DNA from: Hartmannibacter diazotrophicus
GTDB lineage: Bacteria > Pseudomonadota > Alphaproteobacteria > Rhizobiales > Pleomorphomonadaceae
DNA length: 64,000 bases
Direction of reading: 5' to 3'
NCBI RefSeq assembly: GCF_900231165.1
Contig: NZ_LT960614.1
Coordinates: 2,974,550 to 3,038,549 of the forward strand
Shown: piece by piece, positions 6,297-27,405 of the stretch
How positions within the stretch are numbered: position 1 is the first letter of the stretch
Layout of the letters: each line of letters starts with the position of its first letter
Position numbers and translations under genes: made by a program
The notes under the pieces: generated by a model
The model's database searches: none
What the model saw: only the letters and a program-made list of their open reading frames with translations
What the model was told of the DNA's origin: nothing

Positions 6297-6671
6297 TTAT
6301 TCGGTGGTCGTACGCGTTTCGCCCGTGCCCGTCACCGGAACGTCGGCGCCAGCACCGGATTCGTCGAGCAGCCGGCGCGCCTCCTCCTGCTGCTGCTGCC
6401 GGATGATCGCAAGCGCCATGGCGGAGGGCAGGCTCTCGCCGACGGCTCTGGCGGTGCCCGACCGCTCCTGTGCGACCCCGAGCAATGCATTGCGGTTGCG
6501 TTCGACGGCAGCCGGCTGCTTTGCGGTCGGCTGGGAGGGTTCGGCCGTTTCGATGGATGCTAGGAACCCGGGCAGGTCCGTCGGACCGGACGCACAGGCG
6601 GCAAGCAGAACCGCGAAGGTTCCGATGATAGCGACCCGTCCGGCAATGCGATGTCTCTGGCTACTCGTCAC
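6297..6671 (-). CDS. Small predicted lipoprotein, glutamine-rich C-terminal half
   Basis: Predicted 124-residue exported lipoprotein of unknown function. Using the GTG at 6671, which has a GGGAAGG-like ribosome site just upstream, the N-terminus is basic (TSSQRHRIAGR), then hydrophobic, then a lipobox LLAACASG near residues 20-27. The remainder is low-complexity and polar with a short glutamine run (RQQQQEEARR), suggesting a disordered or helical periplasmic segment. The frame remains open upstream to 6782, but that N-terminus does not resemble a signal peptide. It is separated from the aminotransferase by about 200 bp and is divergent from phaC. Confidence 0.7.
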   Translation of the reverse strand: MTSSQRHRIAGRVAIIGTFAVLLAACASGPTDLPGFLASIETAEPSQPTAKQPAAVERNRNALLGVAQERSGTARAVGESLPSAMALAIIRQQQQEEARRLLDESGAGADVPVTGTGETRTTTE

Positions 6672-6864
6672 ACCCAGCCCTTCCCAGAAATTCGGCAGAC
6701 CTTCCCGCTGCCCGTCTACCTCATGCCAGCATCCGCGACAATTACCTACGAAATGGTCACCAAAATCCAGCCCGTTTCTCAATTGGGCGGTTTCAAGCGG
6801 TCACGCATTCAGCTTATCATGACGGAACACAGGGAGAGTGAACTTCCAAGTATCGGGAATACAA

Positions 6865-8682
6865 ATGACAGACGACCCGAAAGGCGCCGACAAGTCTCCA
6901 CTCCTGCAGTACATGATCAAGGATCCCGACACATTCGCGCATAACGTCGCTGGAATGATCGAGGCGGCCGGCAAGGCTGCCGCAGCCTATGTCGAGCCCC
7001 GCGAGAAGGGCGAGGCGAAAGCCCTGATGACCGACGAGATCGCGACGGTGGTGAAGACCCTGGCGCAGGTCGGTGACGTCTGGATGCGCAAGCCGGAGCG
7101 GATGGCCGAAGCGCAGAACCGCCTCTATGGCCAGTTCCTCGACCTTTGGGGCAACTCGGTGCGCCGCGCGATGGGCGAGGACGCGCCGGAAACTGTGGAA
7201 CCCGAACCGACCGACAAGCGGTTCCGCGATCCCGAGTGGCAGGAAAACCAGTTCTTCGGCTTCCTCAAGCAGGCCTATCTGATCGGTAGCCGCTGGGCCG
7301 AGGAGATGGTCGAGAACGCCGAGAATCTCGATCCGCACACCCGCCTGAAGGCCGAATTCTACGTCAGGCAGCTGAGCGCGGCCCTTTCGCCGTCGAACTT
7401 CGTGCTGACCAATCCGGAGCTCCTGCGCGAGACGCTGACGCGCAACGGCGAGAATATCGTCAAAGGCCTGACGATGCTGGCCGAGGACCTGAAGGCCGGC
7501 GGCGGCGATCTGAAAATCCGCCAGTCCGACGGCTCGCGGTTCAAGGTCGGCGAGAATCTCGCCACGACGCCCGGCAGCGTTATCTACGAAAACGACGTCT
7601 GCCAGATCATTCAGTATGCCGCGACGACGGAAAAGGTGCTGAAACGCCCTCTGCTCATCGTTCCGCCCTGGATCAACAAGTATTACGTGCTCGACCTGAC
7701 GCCGGAAAAATCGCTGATCAAGTGGCTCGTGGATCAGGGCCACACGGTCTTCGTCATCTCATGGGTGAACCCGGACGGGCGTCACGCCGACAAGAGCTTC
7801 GAAGAATACATGAAGGAGGGCATCCTGACGGGCGTCGACATCGCCTGCAAGGTGACCCGCTCCAAGCAGGTCAACACGGTCGGCTATTGCGTCGGCGGAA
7901 CGCTGCTGGCCGTCACGGCAGCCTATTGCGCGGCCACCGGCGACGACCGCATCGCCAGCGCGACGCTCTTCACCACGCAGGTCGACTTCACCAATGCCGG
8001 CGAACTCAAGGTCTTCGTCGACGAGGACCAGATCTCGATCCTCGAGTCCGCCATGTCGGCGAAGGGCTATCTCGACGGCTCCAAGATGGCGCTCGCCTTC
8101 AATTCGCTGCGGCCGAACGATCTCATCTGGCCCTATGTGATCAGCAACTACATGAAGGGGGTCGAGCCGTCGGCCTTCGACCTGCTCTACTGGAATTCCG
8201 ATTCCACCCGCATGCCGGCGGCCAACCACTCCTACTACCTGCGCAATTGCTATCTCAACAATACGCTGGCCAAGGGTGAGATGGAGATTGGCGGCGAGAA
8301 GCTGGATCTGAAGAAGGTCACGATCCCGATCTACAATCTGGCAACGCGTGAGGACCATATCGCGCCGGCCGAGTCGGTCTTCGTGGGGTCGTCCCTCTTC
8401 GGCGGCCCGGTGAAGTTCGTGGTCTCCGGCTCTGGCCACATTGCCGGCGTCGTCAACCATCCAAGCCGCAACAAATACCAGTACTGGACCGATGGCGAGC
8501 CGCAGGGCGAATACAAGGACTGGATCGCCAGGGCCGAGGAGCATCCCGGTTCCTGGTGGTCGGACTGGGATGGCTGGCTGCGCGAGCAGGACGGCCGCGA
8601 GGTCAAGGCCCGTTCCATCGGCGGCGGCCGCTACAACATCATCGAGGATGCGCCGGGCACCTACGTGAAGACGAAGGTGTGA
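6865..8682 (+). CDS. phaC: Class I poly(3-hydroxyalkanoate) synthase PhaC
   Basis: Predicted 605-residue PHA synthase, polymerising (R)-3-hydroxyacyl-CoA into PHB granules. The N-terminal PhaC_N region spans roughly residues 90-265. The alpha/beta-hydrolase core carries the modified lipase box GYCVGGTLL, whose cysteine is the acylated nucleophile, with the catalytic Asp in the REDHIAP block and His in [11 protein letters not shown]. The C-terminal WWSDWDGWL is typical of class I enzymes. An in-frame GTG at 6838 would add nine residues; the ATG at 6865 is preferred by family N-termini. No phaA/phaB/phaR is adjacent. A phasin-like gene lies at 35.2 kb, and ppk/ppx follow here. Confidence 0.96.
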
Positions 8683-8718
8683 AGTCGCCGGTCGGGCCTG
8701 GGAGCCGAGCGGCCTCCC

Positions 8719-10278
8719 TCACTCGATCACCACAATCCCGTCCATCAGGCCGCCGAGCTTGGCCAGCTGCGACAGCCGCTTGCGCACCCGCTCGCCATCG
8801 AGACCGGCAAGCGCGCTCGGCAGAATGAGCCGCAGATTGTCGCCGCCCGATTCCAGCCGTGTCTGCGGCACGATCCCCGGCATCGAGGCCGACAGCATGT
8901 AGGCAAGGCGCAACATCGCGCCGAGCAGGCGCGCCCGTCCCTTGAGGCGCGTGCTGGCGAGTTCCCGGATTCGCGGGCTCAGCGCCTCGTCGACGATGCC
9001 GACATGGCGGAAATAGGCCGAGAGGGCGAGATAGGCGCGGCCGGGATGGTCGATGCCGGTAAAGGCGCCGTGGGCGATCAGGTTGAGGCTCTGCTCACCG
9101 CGATAGTCGGGATGCGCCCTCCAGCCGAGGTCGGAAACGAGGCATCCGGCCGCCCGAAGACGCGCTTCTTCCGCTGTTTCCAGAACGCCCAGCGCCTTGA
9201 AGCCCTCCGCGGTCCAATCGATCAGTTCTTCCGCGTGACGCGGCGAACGCGAGCGCAGGTAGGCAAGTTCGGCAGCCGCCTCAAGCAGCGGATCTTCGTT
9301 GCGCTCGGCCTCGCTGAGGAGTTCGAAGAGATGCCCCTCTCGCACACCAAGAGCCGAGAGAACGACGCGCGCCGGCTTCAGCGTCTCGATGACCTTTTCC
9401 AGCACCAGCGCACCGAAGGGCAGCAGATTGCGGCGCGACTTCGAGACGACGCCGATCTGGTCGATGCTCGAGACGTCCGTGCGGGCAACGGTGCGGGCAA
9501 ACTCCAGCGCCTCGTCCGCCTCGATCTCGTAGCCGTGCATGACATGCAGAGGATAGCCGATCTCGAACATGTGCAGCCGCGCCAGGGAACGCCAGGTGCC
9601 GCCGACCGCATAGAAGGTCTGCCCCTCGCAGATCATCTCCGCGGCTGCGTCGGCGAGTGCTTCCGCGGCGATCTTTTCCGCTTTCTTGATCGAGCCGCCG
9701 GCCGCTTCCTCCAGCCGGATGCCGCCGAGCGGGAACGTGCGCCCCTCGCCCACGGCACCGTCCGTCAGGCGGACGAGTTCCAGACTGCCGCCGCCAAGGT
9801 CGCCGACAATCCCGGACGGATGGATGAAGCCGGAGGCAACCCCCATCGCCGAAAGCCGGGCCTCGTCGGCACCGGAAAGCAGCGTCAGCGGCACGCCGCA
9901 GATCGTCTCGACGCGCTCGATGAACTCCGGGCCGTTGCTGGCGTCGCGCACGGCAGCCGTCGCCAGGATATGCAGTTCCACACATCTCTCGACGTCGGCC
10001 AGCATCTTGAAGCGCTGGATGGCGAGCAGGGCCTTCTCGACCTGCTCCTCGCCGAGCCGGCCCGTGCTCGCGACGCCCTTGCCAAGGCCGGCCAGCGTCT
10101 TTTCGTTGAAGAGGACCGTCGGAGCCCGGCTCAGTCTCTCGTAGATGACGAGGCGAACCGAATTCGATCCGATATCGATGACGGCGAGAGGGCCGCGCCC
10201 GACGATGCGACCGGGGGCGTGAACCCCATCAAGTGCGCCGGCTGCGACGTAGGATCGGCTTGGGAGAATCGGTTTCAA
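8719..10278 (-). CDS. ppx: Exopolyphosphatase (Ppx/GppA family)
   Basis: 519-residue Ppx/GppA-family phosphatase of the actin-like ATPase fold, releasing phosphate from polyphosphate ends or acting on pppGpp. The N-terminal motif [17 protein letters not shown] and the second phosphate-binding block [15 protein letters not shown] are clear. The C-terminal half matches the longer alphaproteobacterial version. The only start in this stretch is a TTG at 10278 with a weak ribosome site, giving a 50-bp overlap with the 3' end of ppk, so the exact N-terminus is uncertain. Polyphosphate synthesis and breakdown are thus encoded in one transcription unit. Confidence 0.94.
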
Positions 10279-15036: not shown

Positions 15037-15630
15037 ATCTGGGGGTGAAGCCAGGCCGATGGAAGGCCGATCTTCGGCGCACGCGCTGCCGCGGCAATGA
15101 AATCCGGCGGCCGCCCTCTCGCGGCGGCGGAAATTCGCACAGTCGCGCCCCCCGACCACCGGCCGCGAACTTGGCGTCGCCGTCCGATTTCTCGCCTGCG
15201 ACGATGTTGCACGCCTGCTCGAGGCAACGTCATTCCGTGCGCCAGTCGAGCATTTGCAACCGGATTCACGGGACCGCAAAGAGATTGTCTCCACAGCGGA
15301 GAAAATACCCAACGAAGCGCATGATTAAATTTCGGGCACTGGTGAGATCATGCATTTTATTCATTTTAAATCGATTTGATTCATTTGTGGGATAATTTAT
15401 ACCAGATTTGATCACATGAATCGCAGCATATGAAATCACATTTTCAGACAATTTATTCGAAGACTACGAAATATATACTTACATAATACGGAATGCTTCA
15501 AATAATGACACGGAATGTTGTTTGAGACATGATCCGCCGCCGGCCATTCGACTTTGATTCATGCAGTAATTTGAATGTGAGCGATGGCCGCAAGAGTAAA
15601 TCGCCTGCAAGCAGGCACTGGGAGGGAATC
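15037..15630. other. 594-bp divergent intergenic region with AT-rich core
   Basis: No convincing gene is seen. The part from about 15310 to 15530 is strikingly AT-rich for this GC-rich window. It contains several copies of GATTCAT or its complement ATGAATC (near 15376, 15416 and 15554). A possible sigma70-like element GATAATTTAT lies near 15391. It sits between the PgsA-like gene (minus) and the DUF1097 gene (plus), so it probably holds one or two promoters and regulator sites. Confidence 0.6.
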
Positions 15631-24363: not shown

Positions 24364-24594
24364 TTTTCAACAGGTCAGAGAACTCAAGTCCCAGTTCATA
24401 CCCGAAGCTGGCACAAATTGCACTCCGCTCGGGGCTGGTGACACCTCGCCGCTCACTTGGGGGACGAGCCGCGTCGCCGCAATGGCGTCGCTTCAAGGGC
24501 GGCCAGACGGCCGATCATCCTCGCCCACAGGGCCGACGAACTTCCCATGCCGCCGGCAGATCCATCTGGCGCATTGATCCTTCCGTAAAATCCT

Positions 24595-24616
24595 AATATT
24601 CTAATTATCGAATATT
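24595..24616. promoter_or_regulatory. Candidate BigR/SqrR-type operator (ATTC-N8-GAAT)
   Basis: A perfect interrupted palindrome AATATTC, 8 nt, GAATATT sits 23 bp before the ATG of the first YeeE/YedE gene, in an AT-rich pocket. ATTC-N8-GAAT is the established operator core for the ArsR-family persulfide sensors BigR, SqrR and YgaV. The genes downstream are of the kind these repressors control, so site and function agree. No arsR/bigR gene is within the window. Confidence 0.75.
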
Positions 24617-24639
24617 AAAATTAATCGGGAGGAACGCCG

Positions 24640-25155
24640 ATGACATCCGGTCCGCGACCATTCTGGCCGCCGTTGGTGGCAGGATTTGCGCTTGGACTCA
24701 CCCTGCTGCTGACATTCGTGATCTCCGGAAACGGCCTTGGCGCCTCCGGCTTCGTCACGCGGCTGGCCGCCCAAATCAGCGCATGGATTGCGCCTGACCC
24801 GACGGCGGCCAATGCCTATTTCGGCCCCTTCATCAAGGCCGGGGCACCGCTTGCCTCATGGATCACCTGGGAAATCGTCGGCGTCCTGATCGGGGCCTTC
24901 ATCGGCGCTCGCAGCGCCGGCCGGACGAAGGTGATGATCGAGCGCGGACCTCATGCCTCTGCCGGCCAGCGTCTCGCCTACGCCTTCATCGGCGGCGCCA
25001 TCGTCGGCTTCGGCGCCCGCCTCGCGCGCGGCTGCACCAGCGGCCTCGGCCTTTCCGGCGGCGCCACGCTCGCCGTGGCCGGTTTCGTCTTCCTCGCCGG
25101 CTTCTTCATCGCCGGCTTTGCCGTCAGCGCATTCATGCGGAGGGCCTGGCAGTGA
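24640..25155 (+). CDS. YeeE/YedE family half-transporter, first subunit
   Basis: 171-residue membrane protein of the sulfur-transport YeeE/YedE family (DUF395/Sulf_transp). Hydrophobic segments include PLVAGFALGLTLLLTFVISG, WEIVGVLIGAFIGARSAG, AYAFIGGAIVGFGARLARG and AVAGFVFLAGFFIAGFAVSAF. The conserved block RLARGCTSGLGLSGG holds the family cysteine thought to relay reduced sulfur across the membrane. It is half-size, with the second half encoded by the next, overlapping gene, as in BigR-controlled operons of Xylella and Agrobacterium. Ribosome site GGGAGGAA. Confidence 0.9.
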   Translation: MTSGPRPFWPPLVAGFALGLTLLLTFVISGNGLGASGFVTRLAAQISAWIAPDPTAANAYFGPFIKAGAPLASWITWEIVGVLIGAFIGARSAGRTKVMIERGPHASAGQRLAYAFIGGAIVGFGARLARGCTSGLGLSGGATLAVAGFVFLAGFFIAGFAVSAFMRRAWQ

Positions 25156-25745
25156 ACATGCCTCTCTACGATATCGGTGTCGCCAGCGGCCTGCTGTCCG
25201 GCATTCTCTTCGGCTACGTGCTGGAGGCTGCCGGCTTCGGCAGCGCCCGCAAGCTGACCGGCCAGTTCTCGCTGAAGGACTGGGCCGTGTTCAAGGTGAT
25301 GTTCACCGCCGTCCTCGTCGCCGCCGTCGGCCTCTATCTCCTTCGTCTCGGCGGCATGATCGCCGACAATTCGGTCTTCGTCCCGACCCTGTTCTTCTGG
25401 GCCATCGCCGCCGGCGGCGTTCTCATCGGCACGGGCTTCGCCATGGGCGGCTACTGCCCCGGCACGTCGGCCGTGGGCATTGCGGCGGGACGCATCGACG
25501 CTCTCGTCTTCGCGGTCGGCATGATCGTCGGCACCAGCGTCTTCGCCTGGGTCTTCGAGCCGCTGCAAGGCTTCTATTTCGCCGCCAAGGGGCCGGACGC
25601 CCAGCGCCTGCCGGACCTCTTCGGAATTCCGGAATGGGTCGTGCTCGGCCTCCTGATCGTCATCGCCATCGCCGGATTCCTTCTCGGCTCGAAGCTTGAA
25701 CGCGCCCGTGGTGGGCCGTTCACCGCCGAGGATGTCAACGCCTGA
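25152..25745 (+). CDS. YeeE/YedE family half-transporter, second subunit
   Basis: 197-residue membrane protein pairing with the preceding half-transporter. It has helices at GLLSGILFGYVLEAAGFGSA, FKVMFTAVLVAAVGLYLLRL, LFFWAIAAGGVLIGTGFAMG, FAVGMIVGTSVFAWVFEPL and WVVLGLLIVIAIAGFLLG. The family cysteine lies in AMGGYCPGTSAVGIAAG. The GTG start at 25152 overlaps the previous stop (GTGA) and has GGAGGG seven bases upstream; an ATG two codons later is possible. Probable role: uptake of thiosulfate-like or other reduced sulfur, or export of excess sulfur. Confidence 0.9.
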   Translation: MNMPLYDIGVASGLLSGILFGYVLEAAGFGSARKLTGQFSLKDWAVFKVMFTAVLVAAVGLYLLRLGGMIADNSVFVPTLFFWAIAAGGVLIGTGFAMGGYCPGTSAVGIAAGRIDALVFAVGMIVGTSVFAWVFEPLQGFYFAAKGPDAQRLPDLFGIPEWVVLGLLIVIAIAGFLLGSKLERARGGPFTAEDVNA

Positions 25746-25802
25746 GGGAGCGTCCAAGGCCAATAACAACGTCACTTCCAACCCATAGGCAGGAAACGTG
25801 TC

Positions 25803-26519
25803 ATGAAGAAATCCATTCGCAAGAGCCTTCTCACGGCCGCCCTCGTGCCGGTCACCGTGGTTGCCGTCGGCGCCGCCGTTCCCTCCGCAGCCCTTGCCCA
25901 GGCGATGAACCCCTGCGCCCCGGCCGCAGGCCCGGCCAATCCCTGCGCGCCGGCAATGGCGCCCGCCAATCCGTGCGCACCCGCGGCCGCCCCGGCTGCC
26001 GCGAAGGCCGACGAGGCCGCGCTGCCGAAGGGCATGTACGACACGACCACCAAGTACAAACAGGCGGCCTTCGGCAACCAGATGCCGAACATCGTCGAGA
26101 ACTACCTGCGCGCCGTGCCCTATATCGGCACCGGCGGCCTGATCGAGCCGACCGGCATGGACATGCTTGCCTCGCTCGGCTTCAAGACGATCGTGAGCCT
26201 GAACACCGACGAGGAAGGCGCCGCCGCCGAACGCCCGCTGGTGGAAAAGGCCGGCATGACCTTCATCGATATCGGCGTGACCACCAAGGCGCCGACCAAC
26301 GACCAGGTCGCCGAATTCGCCAAGATCGCCGAGGACCCGAACAACTATCCGATCTTGGTTCATTGCGAGTCGGCCAACCGCGTCGGCGCCATGTGGGCGC
26401 TCTATCGCGCCTCAAAGGGCATCCCGAAGGACATTGCCATCGAGGAAGGCCGCACCATCGGCCTGAAGACCAGCCGCGAACCGGCCGTGCGCGACATGCT
26501 CGGCATGCCGGCGCTCTGA
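25803..26519 (+). CDS. Exported DUF442/rhodanese-like protein with NPCAP repeats
   Basis: 238-residue protein with a signal peptide (KKSIRKSLLTAALVPVTVV, cleavage likely after ALAQA near residue 34). Residues 36-65 form three 10-residue repeats, each starting NPCAP. The folded part, about residues 88-238, ends in the loop LVHCESANRVGAMW: H187, Cys188, Arg193. The spacing is CX4R, as in rhodaneses and the DUF442 domain of Blh/CstB, rather than the CX5R of tyrosine phosphatases. In the BigR context it is probably a periplasmic persulfide or sulfur-transfer protein. The gene is 57 bp after the transporter pair and ends at a terminator. Confidence 0.82.
   Translation: MKKSIRKSLLTAALVPVTVVAVGAAVPSAALAQAMNPCAPAAGPANPCAPAMAPANPCAPAAAPAAAKADEAALPKGMYDTTTKYKQAAFGNQMPNIVENYLRAVPYIGTGGLIEPTGMDMLASLGFKTIVSLNTDEEGAAAERPLVEKAGMTFIDIGVTTKAPTNDQVAEFAKIAEDPNNYPILVHCESANRVGAMWALYRASKGIPKDIAIEEGRTIGLKTSREPAVRDMLGMPAL
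25908..25997 (+). repeat. Three tandem 30-bp coding repeats (NPCAP decapeptides)
   Basis: These bases encode residues 36-65 as NPCAPAAGPA, NPCAPAMAPA and NPCAPAAAPA, three copies in exact 10-residue register, each with one cysteine. They form a Pro/Ala linker directly after the signal peptide. Confidence 0.95.
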
Positions 26520-26545
26520 ACGCCGGCCTCGTGCGAAAATCGGTG

Positions 26546-26576
26546 GGGTCGGCCTGGCGGCCGGCCCTTTTGTTTT
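26546..26576 (+). terminator. Terminator of the sulfur operon
   Basis: Nine-base-pair stem GGGTCGGCC / GGCCGGCCC (one G-U), loop TGGC, then TTTTGTTTT, starting 27 bp after the stop of the NPCAP protein gene. Confidence 0.88.
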
Positions 26577-26634: not shown

Positions 26635-27405
26635 ATGGGGATCGATCCGATGACCGAGACGATGGCAAAAGCCAAGGCCCCACGGCTGCCCTTCCCGCAG
26701 GACCTGACCGGCTTGTCAAGAGAACGGCTGGAAGCCATGCACGATGCGGCGGCCAAGGTTCTTGAATGCGAACAGGCGCTTGCGCAATCCGGCTCGAATG
26801 TCGTCGCGGAGGTCCTGCGGGATCAGGGCGATTTCCTGATCTGGGAGCGCTACCCCAAGGGCGATCTCTTCGATCTTGCGAACCACAGCCACTATTTCTA
26901 CCACGCCCATACACGGCAAGAGATGGCGGACGGCGAGAACGGCCATTTCCATCTGTTTGTCCGGCCTGCTGAAATCGCAGCCGACATGAAGCCGTGGCAA
27001 CTGCCGGGGGCGGTAATCCCCGAGAACCCGGCCGACCGCTTCGCCCATATCGCCGCGATCAGCGTCGACAATTACGGCCGGCTGATCCGCATCTTCACCA
27101 CCAACCGCTGGGTGACCAACGAAACGCTCTATCGGGCGGAGGACGTCATCGCCCTGCTCGACCACTTCGCCATTGGGCTCGACCATCCAAGCCGGGCGCT
27201 GAACCAATGGCTCACCAGCCTCGTCACCCTCTACAGGCCGCAGTTGGAAGCGCTTCTCCGCGCCCGCGACGCCACGCTGGAGGCTTGGGCGAAAGAGCAT
27301 CCGGGCTCGGAAATCCTCGAAGACCGAAGGCTGCAGAACACCAGCGAGGTCTATGTCGACACGATCAAGCAGATCGAAGCGATCGAGACGGCGCTCGATA
27401 TCTGA
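26635..27405 (+). CDS. Conserved hypothetical protein (DUF6969-like)
   Basis: 256-residue soluble protein without signal peptide or membrane segments. It begins MGIDPMTETMAKAKAPRLPF; the ATG at 26650 is an alternative. Visible blocks are DQGDFLIWERYPKGDLFD, HSHYFYHAHTRQEM followed by GHFHLFVRP, and IFTTNRWVTNETLYRAEDV. The cluster of His residues (HSHYFYHAH, HFH) around residues 85-115 might bind a metal, but that is inference. It resembles the uncharacterised DUF6969 family. It begins about 60 bp after the sulfur-operon terminator, so it may or may not be part of the same response. Confidence 0.75.
   Translation: MGIDPMTETMAKAKAPRLPFPQDLTGLSRERLEAMHDAAAKVLECEQALAQSGSNVVAEVLRDQGDFLIWERYPKGDLFDLANHSHYFYHAHTRQEMADGENGHFHLFVRPAEIAADMKPWQLPGAVIPENPADRFAHIAAISVDNYGRLIRIFTTNRWVTNETLYRAEDVIALLDHFAIGLDHPSRALNQWLTSLVTLYRPQLEALLRARDATLEAWAKEHPGSEILEDRRLQNTSEVYVDTIKQIEAIETALDI

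Follow-up and report, generated by a model that had tools for sequence, protein, structure and literature searches.

The bigR operon of Xylella and Agrobacterium consists of bigR, blh, which encodes a DUF442-ETHE1 protein, and a gene for a TauE-type exporter; BigR acts at the promoter, the DUF442 domain of Blh is a sulfur transferase, and the logic of the system is that of a sulfide response (PMC5823870). In Agrobacterium, yedE1E2 lies upstream of blh (PMC10812762). The yeeE-yedE-pdo2 operon of Acinetobacter, present also in Serratia, joins paired YeeE/YedE proteins to a persulfide dioxygenase under a BigR-type repressor (PMC7315123). The two-gene YedE1E2 pairs of Cupriavidus and Sinorhizobium, made of two halves with one conserved cysteine each, import zero-valent sulfur and require both cysteines, and no exported partner is mentioned in the available part of that account (PMC10812762). 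For the SoxT modules of Hyphomicrobium it has been proposed that a full-length YeeE-like importer obtains its sulfur from a periplasmic thiol protein, there DsbA/SoxS-like (PMC11582611). Here we analyze a three-gene operon related to these systems, encoding two half-size transporters and an exported-looking DUF442 protein, in a 64-kb stretch of the Hartmannibacter diazotrophicus genome (NZ_LT960614.1, positions 2,974,550 to 3,038,549), hereafter the window; its locus is labeled W and the loci compared with it carry labels such as L061.

The gene content of the operon, the likeness of its upstream palindrome to BigR/SqrR operators, the presence of sensor-type genes elsewhere in the genome and the conservation of the gene order are observed features. 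From them we consider it probable that the locus is a sulfane-sulfur-inducible operon for a zero-valent sulfur importer, controlled in trans by a BigR/SqrR-type sensor and equipped with a periplasmic sulfur-transfer partner. A persulfide sensor of this type, encoded elsewhere, would repress the three genes until sulfide or polysulfide raised intracellular persulfides and the two cysteines of the sensor became linked, whereupon the linked sensor would dissociate from the palindrome, which lies over the promoter, and expression would begin. Such cysteine linkage by persulfides frees the promoter in the case of both BigR (PMC5823870) and SqrR (PMC9995734). Together the half transporters would form an importer of the PmpAB/YedE1E2 type for zero-valent (sulfane) sulfur. 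On the cysteine of its CX4R loop, the exported DUF442 protein would take up periplasmic sulfane sulfur, possibly helped by a cysteine-rich NPCAP tail, and would hand it to the importer, after which cytoplasmic enzymes would dispose of the sulfur or use it.

Compared with the bigR operon, the operon here lacks bigR, the ETHE1 dioxygenase domain and TauE, and its DUF442 protein is stand-alone, exported-looking and furnished with a cysteine-repeat tail. Compared with yeeE-yedE-pdo2, it encodes in third position an exported-looking DUF442 protein and not a persulfide dioxygenase, and the regulator would act in trans; the operon resembles yeeE-yedE-pdo2 with the dioxygenase replaced, and it looks new as a variation on sulfide-response operons. 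The periplasmic partner would likewise be a DUF442 protein and not the DsbA/SoxS-like protein of the SoxT modules. No joint treatment of DUF442 and YeeE was found among the literature matches searched. An earlier reading of the sequence (the first-pass annotation) had already proposed that the layout differs from described operons, and this is borne out by a window without an ArsR gene and a genome without a second DUF442 protein. The operon offers a conserved, testable candidate for a partner that serves a half-size YeeE importer from the periplasm, and the BigR/SqrR regulon would be extended to such an importer together with its partner.

The operator-like palindrome and its candidate regulators

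The putative operator, TAATATTC-N8-GAATATTA, occupies 24594-24617, with arms of 8 bp each and with 22 bases between it and the ATG at 24640. Its core, ATTC-N8-GAAT, was reported in the first-pass annotation before the first gene; it is indeed there, at 24598-24613, as the single copy in the window, and the arms reach further than the core. ATTC-N8-GAAT is the deduced SqrR site, and one promoter bound by YgaV is without it (PMC9774250). The bare motif was rejected as evidence by itself, and its earlier use in support of a BigR/SqrR site falls with it, since it occurs at chance level (1 observed against 1.01 expected from shuffles of the window) and a genome-wide scan gave 38 places in 5.45 Mb. 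Perfect 8-bp arms around an 8-bp spacer occur at four places in the 64 kb, the operator palindrome being one of them, and ATATTC-N8-GAATAT has one mismatch-free copy in the whole genome. Exact ATTC-N8-GAAT is found neither in L061-L066 nor in L055-L057, so a looser matrix was needed for the comparison with relatives.

Rhodanese loci of relatives were collected so that the site could be tested without presupposing the motif. Rhodanese matches were present in 21 of 40 genomes, the H. diazotrophicus genome included. A Gibbs search of 21 regions upstream of the relatives' rhodanese loci, from which its own genome was excluded, returned de novo the motif TATATTAGWATATWCGAATTTA in 17 of the 21. These 17 sites make up the scoring matrix, the remaining regions (L095, L103, L104 and L107), which have no site, having been dropped after motif discovery. 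A BigR/SqrR-type ArsR gene lies just upstream of the rhodanese in 14 of 23 loci, two of the 23 being from the genome itself, and in 13 of those 14 loci the motif lies between the ArsR gene and the rhodanese.

With this matrix the palindrome ranks first in the window, with a score of 22.4 against 13.0 for the next separate site, and the proposal in the first-pass annotation that it is a BigR/SqrR operator gains support. The same matrix scores the rhodanese/sqr promoter of the genome at 22.1, the gap between cydDC and a BigR-like gene at 20.8 and the promoter of a soxSRT-like cluster at 19.5. The score of the operator was reached by 1 of 1000 shuffles of the 120 upstream bases (7 of 2000 when 80 bases were taken) and by none of the window's 56 other upstream regions. 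At the loci of relatives that have the same operon, the operator leads its locus in four of eight: the operon promoter beats all control regions at L061 (15 regions), L062 (15), L064 (3) and L072 (6). Two of 132 control regions reached a matrix score of 10. A covariance model of the motif gave one weak match in the window, which overlaps the palindrome (24590-24605, E 0.15). The second-best separate matrix site, at 15452-15473, is upstream of a membrane-protein open reading frame at 15529, which we take to be DUF1097-like.

The operon itself contains no bigR gene, and all 13 matches to HTH_5 in the genome (E 1e-3) are outside the window. With the candidate regulators encoded elsewhere, regulation would act in trans, and "self-contained", as the operon had been called, is not an apt term because the regulator must come from another locus. 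The suggestion that an ArsR-family gene or BigR/SqrR homolog be sought elsewhere in the genome was a fruitful one, and three BigR/SqrR-type ArsR proteins were found. These three of the 13 HTH_5 proteins have a pair of cysteines 66 residues apart, the same spacing as between Cys 42 and 108 of BigR (PMC5823870) and between Cys 41 and 107 of SqrR (PMC9995734); none of the four minus-strand matches (L008, L013, L017 and L018) has the pair. BigR is the best NCBIfam equivalog of all three, tied in the third with a general metalloregulator subfamily. When solved proteins are compared, the nearest to the third are SqrR chains (6o8l and others).

The genes of the three regulators are at L055 6877-7230, L056 7374-7721 and L057 approximately 6480-6869, and their surroundings differ. 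One adjoins trxC and genes for an SLAC1/TDT-type channel, a flavoprotein (taken as a sulfide:quinone oxidoreductase) and a rhodanese, together with genes read as cydDC and cydAB. Another lies between a thioredoxin-like gene and a full-length Sulf_transp gene, in a cluster read as soxSRT-like at which no soxXYZAB gene was identified, and one has no evident sulfur genes adjoining it. A second rhodanese paralog (L055 183-467, 57% identical over the match) is located approximately 6.4 kb from this last, orphan BigR-like gene (L055 6877-7230).

A split importer and an exported-looking DUF442 protein

The three genes are on the plus strand. The first (24640-25155) encodes a PmpA/YedE1E2-type half transporter that matches the C-terminal half of Sulf_transp (PF04143; 72.6 bits against a cut-off of 27, E 5e-20, profile positions 176-308), and the second (25152-25745), which overlaps it by 4 bases, encodes a PmpB/YedE1E2-type half transporter that matches the N-terminal half (53 bits against the same cut-off of 27, E 5e-14, positions 4-149) and also DUF6691. 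Profiles built from eight sequences each, those of the window and seven relatives with L073 left out, align to the solved thiosulfate transporter TsuA at 236-330 for the first gene (E 2e-5) and at 3-185 for the second (E 8e-4). The cysteines of ARGCTSG in the first protein and of GGYCPGT in the second are invariant in 8/8 sequences each, and the overlapping half-size YeeE/YedE pair with family cysteines recognized in the first-pass annotation thus stands. PmpA and PmpB match the C and N halves and have approximately 130 amino acids and four transmembrane helices each (PMC11582611). The half transporters here are longer, at 171 and 197 amino acids, and the pair fits the split PmpAB/YedE1E2 layout: two half-size genes, one conserved cysteine each, and a C-terminal plus an N-terminal half.

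The third gene (25803-26519) encodes a protein of 238 amino acids that is above the cut-off for DUF442 (BLH_phosphatase, PF04273; 30.2 bits against 26.1), so that both families proposed for a profile search, DUF442 and Sulf_transp, are represented in the operon. It scores better, and likewise above the cut-off, with PF22741 (PTP-NADK family, 52.2 bits), and is below the cut-off for Rhodanese (PF00581; 14.3 against 22.2 bits) and for the sulfur transferase family TIGR01244 (51.9 against 85.85 bits). An AlphaFold2 model built from 11 sequences has a predicted local distance difference test score (pLDDT) of approximately 90 in the core and below 50 for residues 1-83. The structure that matches it best is the DUF442 protein 3gxh (Z 16.2, root-mean-square deviation 2.8, 142 residues aligned), followed at similar Z by phosphatases of the dual-specificity (DSP) type, with TpbA at Z 13.8, and no rhodanese fold is among the best 50 matches of either fold search. 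The modeled fold is that of DSP phosphatases and DUF442 rather than that of rhodanese.

The loop HCESANR is present, with its CX4R segment C188-ESAN-R193 at 26364-26381. It aligns without gaps to the loops of the two DUF442 structures 3gxg and 2f46, and the loop of TpbA is one residue longer. The loop of classical tyrosine (PTP) and dual-specificity phosphatases is HCX5R, and with CX4R the protein lies outside that definition. The label "rhodanese-like" that it had been given consequently suits the loop, and does not suit the fold or the Pfam Rhodanese score. TpbA, 3gxg/3gxh and 2f46 have the DSP-phosphatase fold in common with the protein, and the matches to them begin at profile residue at least 85, leaving the tail unmatched.

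The N-terminus (amino acids 1-33, 25803-25901, ending in PSAALAQ) reads as a signal peptide. The earlier description of the product as a signal-peptide protein with HCESANR accordingly agrees with the loop and with the DUF442 score, and export is predicted from the N-terminus. Behind it are three NPCAP units (amino acids 36-60, 25908-25982), which had been overlooked. Repeats of the NPC type are found in 9/9 pmpAB-linked DUF442 proteins, in varying number. Two relatives, at L075 and L076, have no NPC-type repeats and no pmpAB was seen beside them; the L075 protein is without the catalytic cysteine, and its gene starts approximately 190 bases from the end of a 3.7-kb contig, so that pmpAB may be located outside the contig. 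No description of an NPCAP/NPCNPC tail was found among the literature matches listed. It is possible that this tail is a module that moves among exported redox proteins. A similar NPC-repeat tail precedes a cytochrome P460 domain at L066 7989-9005.

In the genome, the search for PF04273 (E 1e-3) matched the operon protein alone, which has no second domain, and with no second DUF442 protein there is no Blh fusion. The earlier statement that Blh is missing holds in this sense, since the operon has no ETHE1 domain and the genome encodes no DUF442 protein other than this one; no search was made for a stand-alone dioxygenase. We regard it as possible, and put it forward tentatively, that the exported DUF442 protein serves specifically to carry sulfane sulfur in the periplasm and to load PmpAB with it, the tail cysteines collecting persulfides and the CX4R cysteine passing them on. 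If so, it would be a periplasmic counterpart of the cytoplasmic Blh and a missing donor for half-size YeeE importers.

Alternative explanations

Several observations weigh against a persulfide-regulated sulfur importer with a sulfur-transferring partner. The operator is absent at L073 and L074, where 813/1000 and 470/1000 shuffles score as high, and it is weak at L063 (45/1000 shuffles and 2/10 control regions as high) and at L065 (10/1000 shuffles and 1/8 control regions). The matrix is AT-rich, and promoters are likewise AT-rich. The IUPAC pattern ATATTMK-N6-MKAA gave 19 rows and 18 genome sites, with two forward and two reverse hits in a backward control, and most of the 18 sites, other than those of the window and of the rhodanese promoter, have no evident sulfur gene, the genes being judged by eye. 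(One site, L119, is directly next to a gene of DsbA-like appearance, also by eye.) The covariance model matched neither the genome nor any of 12 loci; because it missed the rhodanese promoter of the genome as well, this null says little, the scan being too insensitive. The three regulators are below the NCBIfam cut-off for BigR (100, 91 and 87 against 155 bits), and the best solved match of two of them is NolR or HlyU, with BigR further down. On the side of the proteins, the DUF442 protein has the fold of DSP phosphatases, which does not in itself imply sulfur chemistry, and no cytoplasmic partner such as TusA or a dioxygenase is found in the operon. The pmpAB of Hyphomicrobium shows no response to thiosulfate and is found among genes for alcohol oxidation (PMC11582611).

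The observations on the promoter would also suit a palindrome that belongs to an AT-rich promoter or is recognized by a regulator other than BigR/SqrR. The chance-level frequency of the bare motif, the AT-richness of the matrix, the two operons of nine without a site and the two with a weak one, and the NolR match of one BigR-like regulator all favor this alternative. We nevertheless consider it unlikely, given that no other upstream region of the window and so few shuffles (1/1000, or 7/2000 with the 80-base region) score as high, and that in 14 of the 23 loci the source of the motif has a BigR/SqrR-type gene next to it. The exported protein could instead be a periplasmic tyrosine or dual-specificity phosphatase like TpbA of Pseudomonas, in which case its link to the importer would be regulatory and not chemical. 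DSP and PTP structures at nearly the Z of DUF442 in the fold search, TpbA included, and Pfam models of the DSP-PTPase type above the cut-off, one of them better than DUF442, are in keeping with such an enzyme. The loop, however, has the CX4R form of two DUF442 structures and is one residue shorter than in TpbA, solved DUF442 proteins give the best matches by both profile and structure, and the neighborhood with a sulfur importer is fixed in nine loci, all of which makes a phosphatase rather improbable.

A further alternative is that the operon serves the import of thiosulfate, or of selenium, for assimilation, with the exported protein freeing sulfur from thiosulfate. TsuA is a thiosulfate importer (PMC11582611), and both halves match models of TsuA and of selenium YedE weakly, with scores well short of the cut-off in every case. 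This too strikes us as scarcely probable: two-gene YedE1E2 pairs import zero-valent sulfur (PMC10812762), the operator indicates a persulfide regulon rather than sulfur starvation, and none of the three operon proteins matches the TusA/TsuB family. Highly unlikely, in our view, is a metal-binding tail, for copper for example, in an exported protein of metal or redox stress, with sulfur import as an answer to metal stress. That idea draws on the spaced cysteines in an exported-looking stretch modeled with low confidence (pLDDT below 50, residues 1-83), on the similar tail before the cytochrome P460 domain in L066, and on the raised expression of copper-related genes by sulfide in Acinetobacter (PMC7315123). 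The operon proteins, however, have no metal-family match, and in the nine loci the tail is always joined to the CX4R domain beside the importer. ABC-3 type permeases are metal transporters, and one such permease was found among seven scanned neighbor proteins of relatives, the other six being of other kinds. An operon for zero-valent sulfur import under a BigR/SqrR-type sensor, with a periplasmic sulfur-transfer partner, remains the explanation that we favor.

Distribution and neighboring genes

The order pmpA-pmpB-DUF442 is found in nine loci, those of the window, L061-L065, L072, L073 and L074. L061, L062 and L065 belong to the Rhodobacterales, L063 to a metagenome-assembled genome of the Rhodospirillales, L064 to the bin HR39 and L072-L074 to the class of the window; L061 and L062 are closely related and therefore count as one. 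The three-gene order is recurrent but rare. In a sample of the class the exported protein was detected in 6/385 genomes (E 1e-15), the H. diazotrophicus genome included, and pmpAB adjoins it in three of the other five. No close copy was found in the 19 other genomes of the family within a 120-genome sample, which gave three weak matches, and so the operon is sporadic. A sample of the phylum had matches in 12/398 genomes, again with its own included, and 10 of 12 other matches start at model position at least 75, beyond the tail. One order that was sampled gave a match in 1/9 genomes, the same genome as already found.

A hairpin with a stem of 10 pairs and a T tail follows the operon on the plus strand at 26545-26568. 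The terminator reported earlier is therefore seen, although shuffled sequence yields almost as many such sites (2.5, against 3 observed in the region), a high background. The consensus of a sigma-70-type promoter was found 0 times in the region, against 0.4 in shuffles. The next gene on the plus strand (26635-27405) encodes a DUF6969 protein (PF22308, E 2e-76) and is likely its own transcription unit. Overlooked in the first-pass annotation, it is a neighbor in some relatives: it follows the operon in the window, L061, L062 and L065, and was not found at the seven other loci of the ten relatives' loci searched. At L072 a secreted-looking protein of the metallo-beta-lactamase fold (7913-8992) is encoded directly after the DUF442 gene, an arrangement that is a possible split, periplasmic analog of Blh.

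Among plasmids, relatives of the exported protein turned up in five records, each partial and none at full length. On a plasmid of Roseomonas mucosa, a short DUF442 gene annotated as "sulfur transferase domain" (L133 3911-4471) is located directly after narGHJI. The plasmid search also encountered a pmpAB-like pair in Sulfuricella, which adjoins genes of the resistance-nodulation-division (RND) type.

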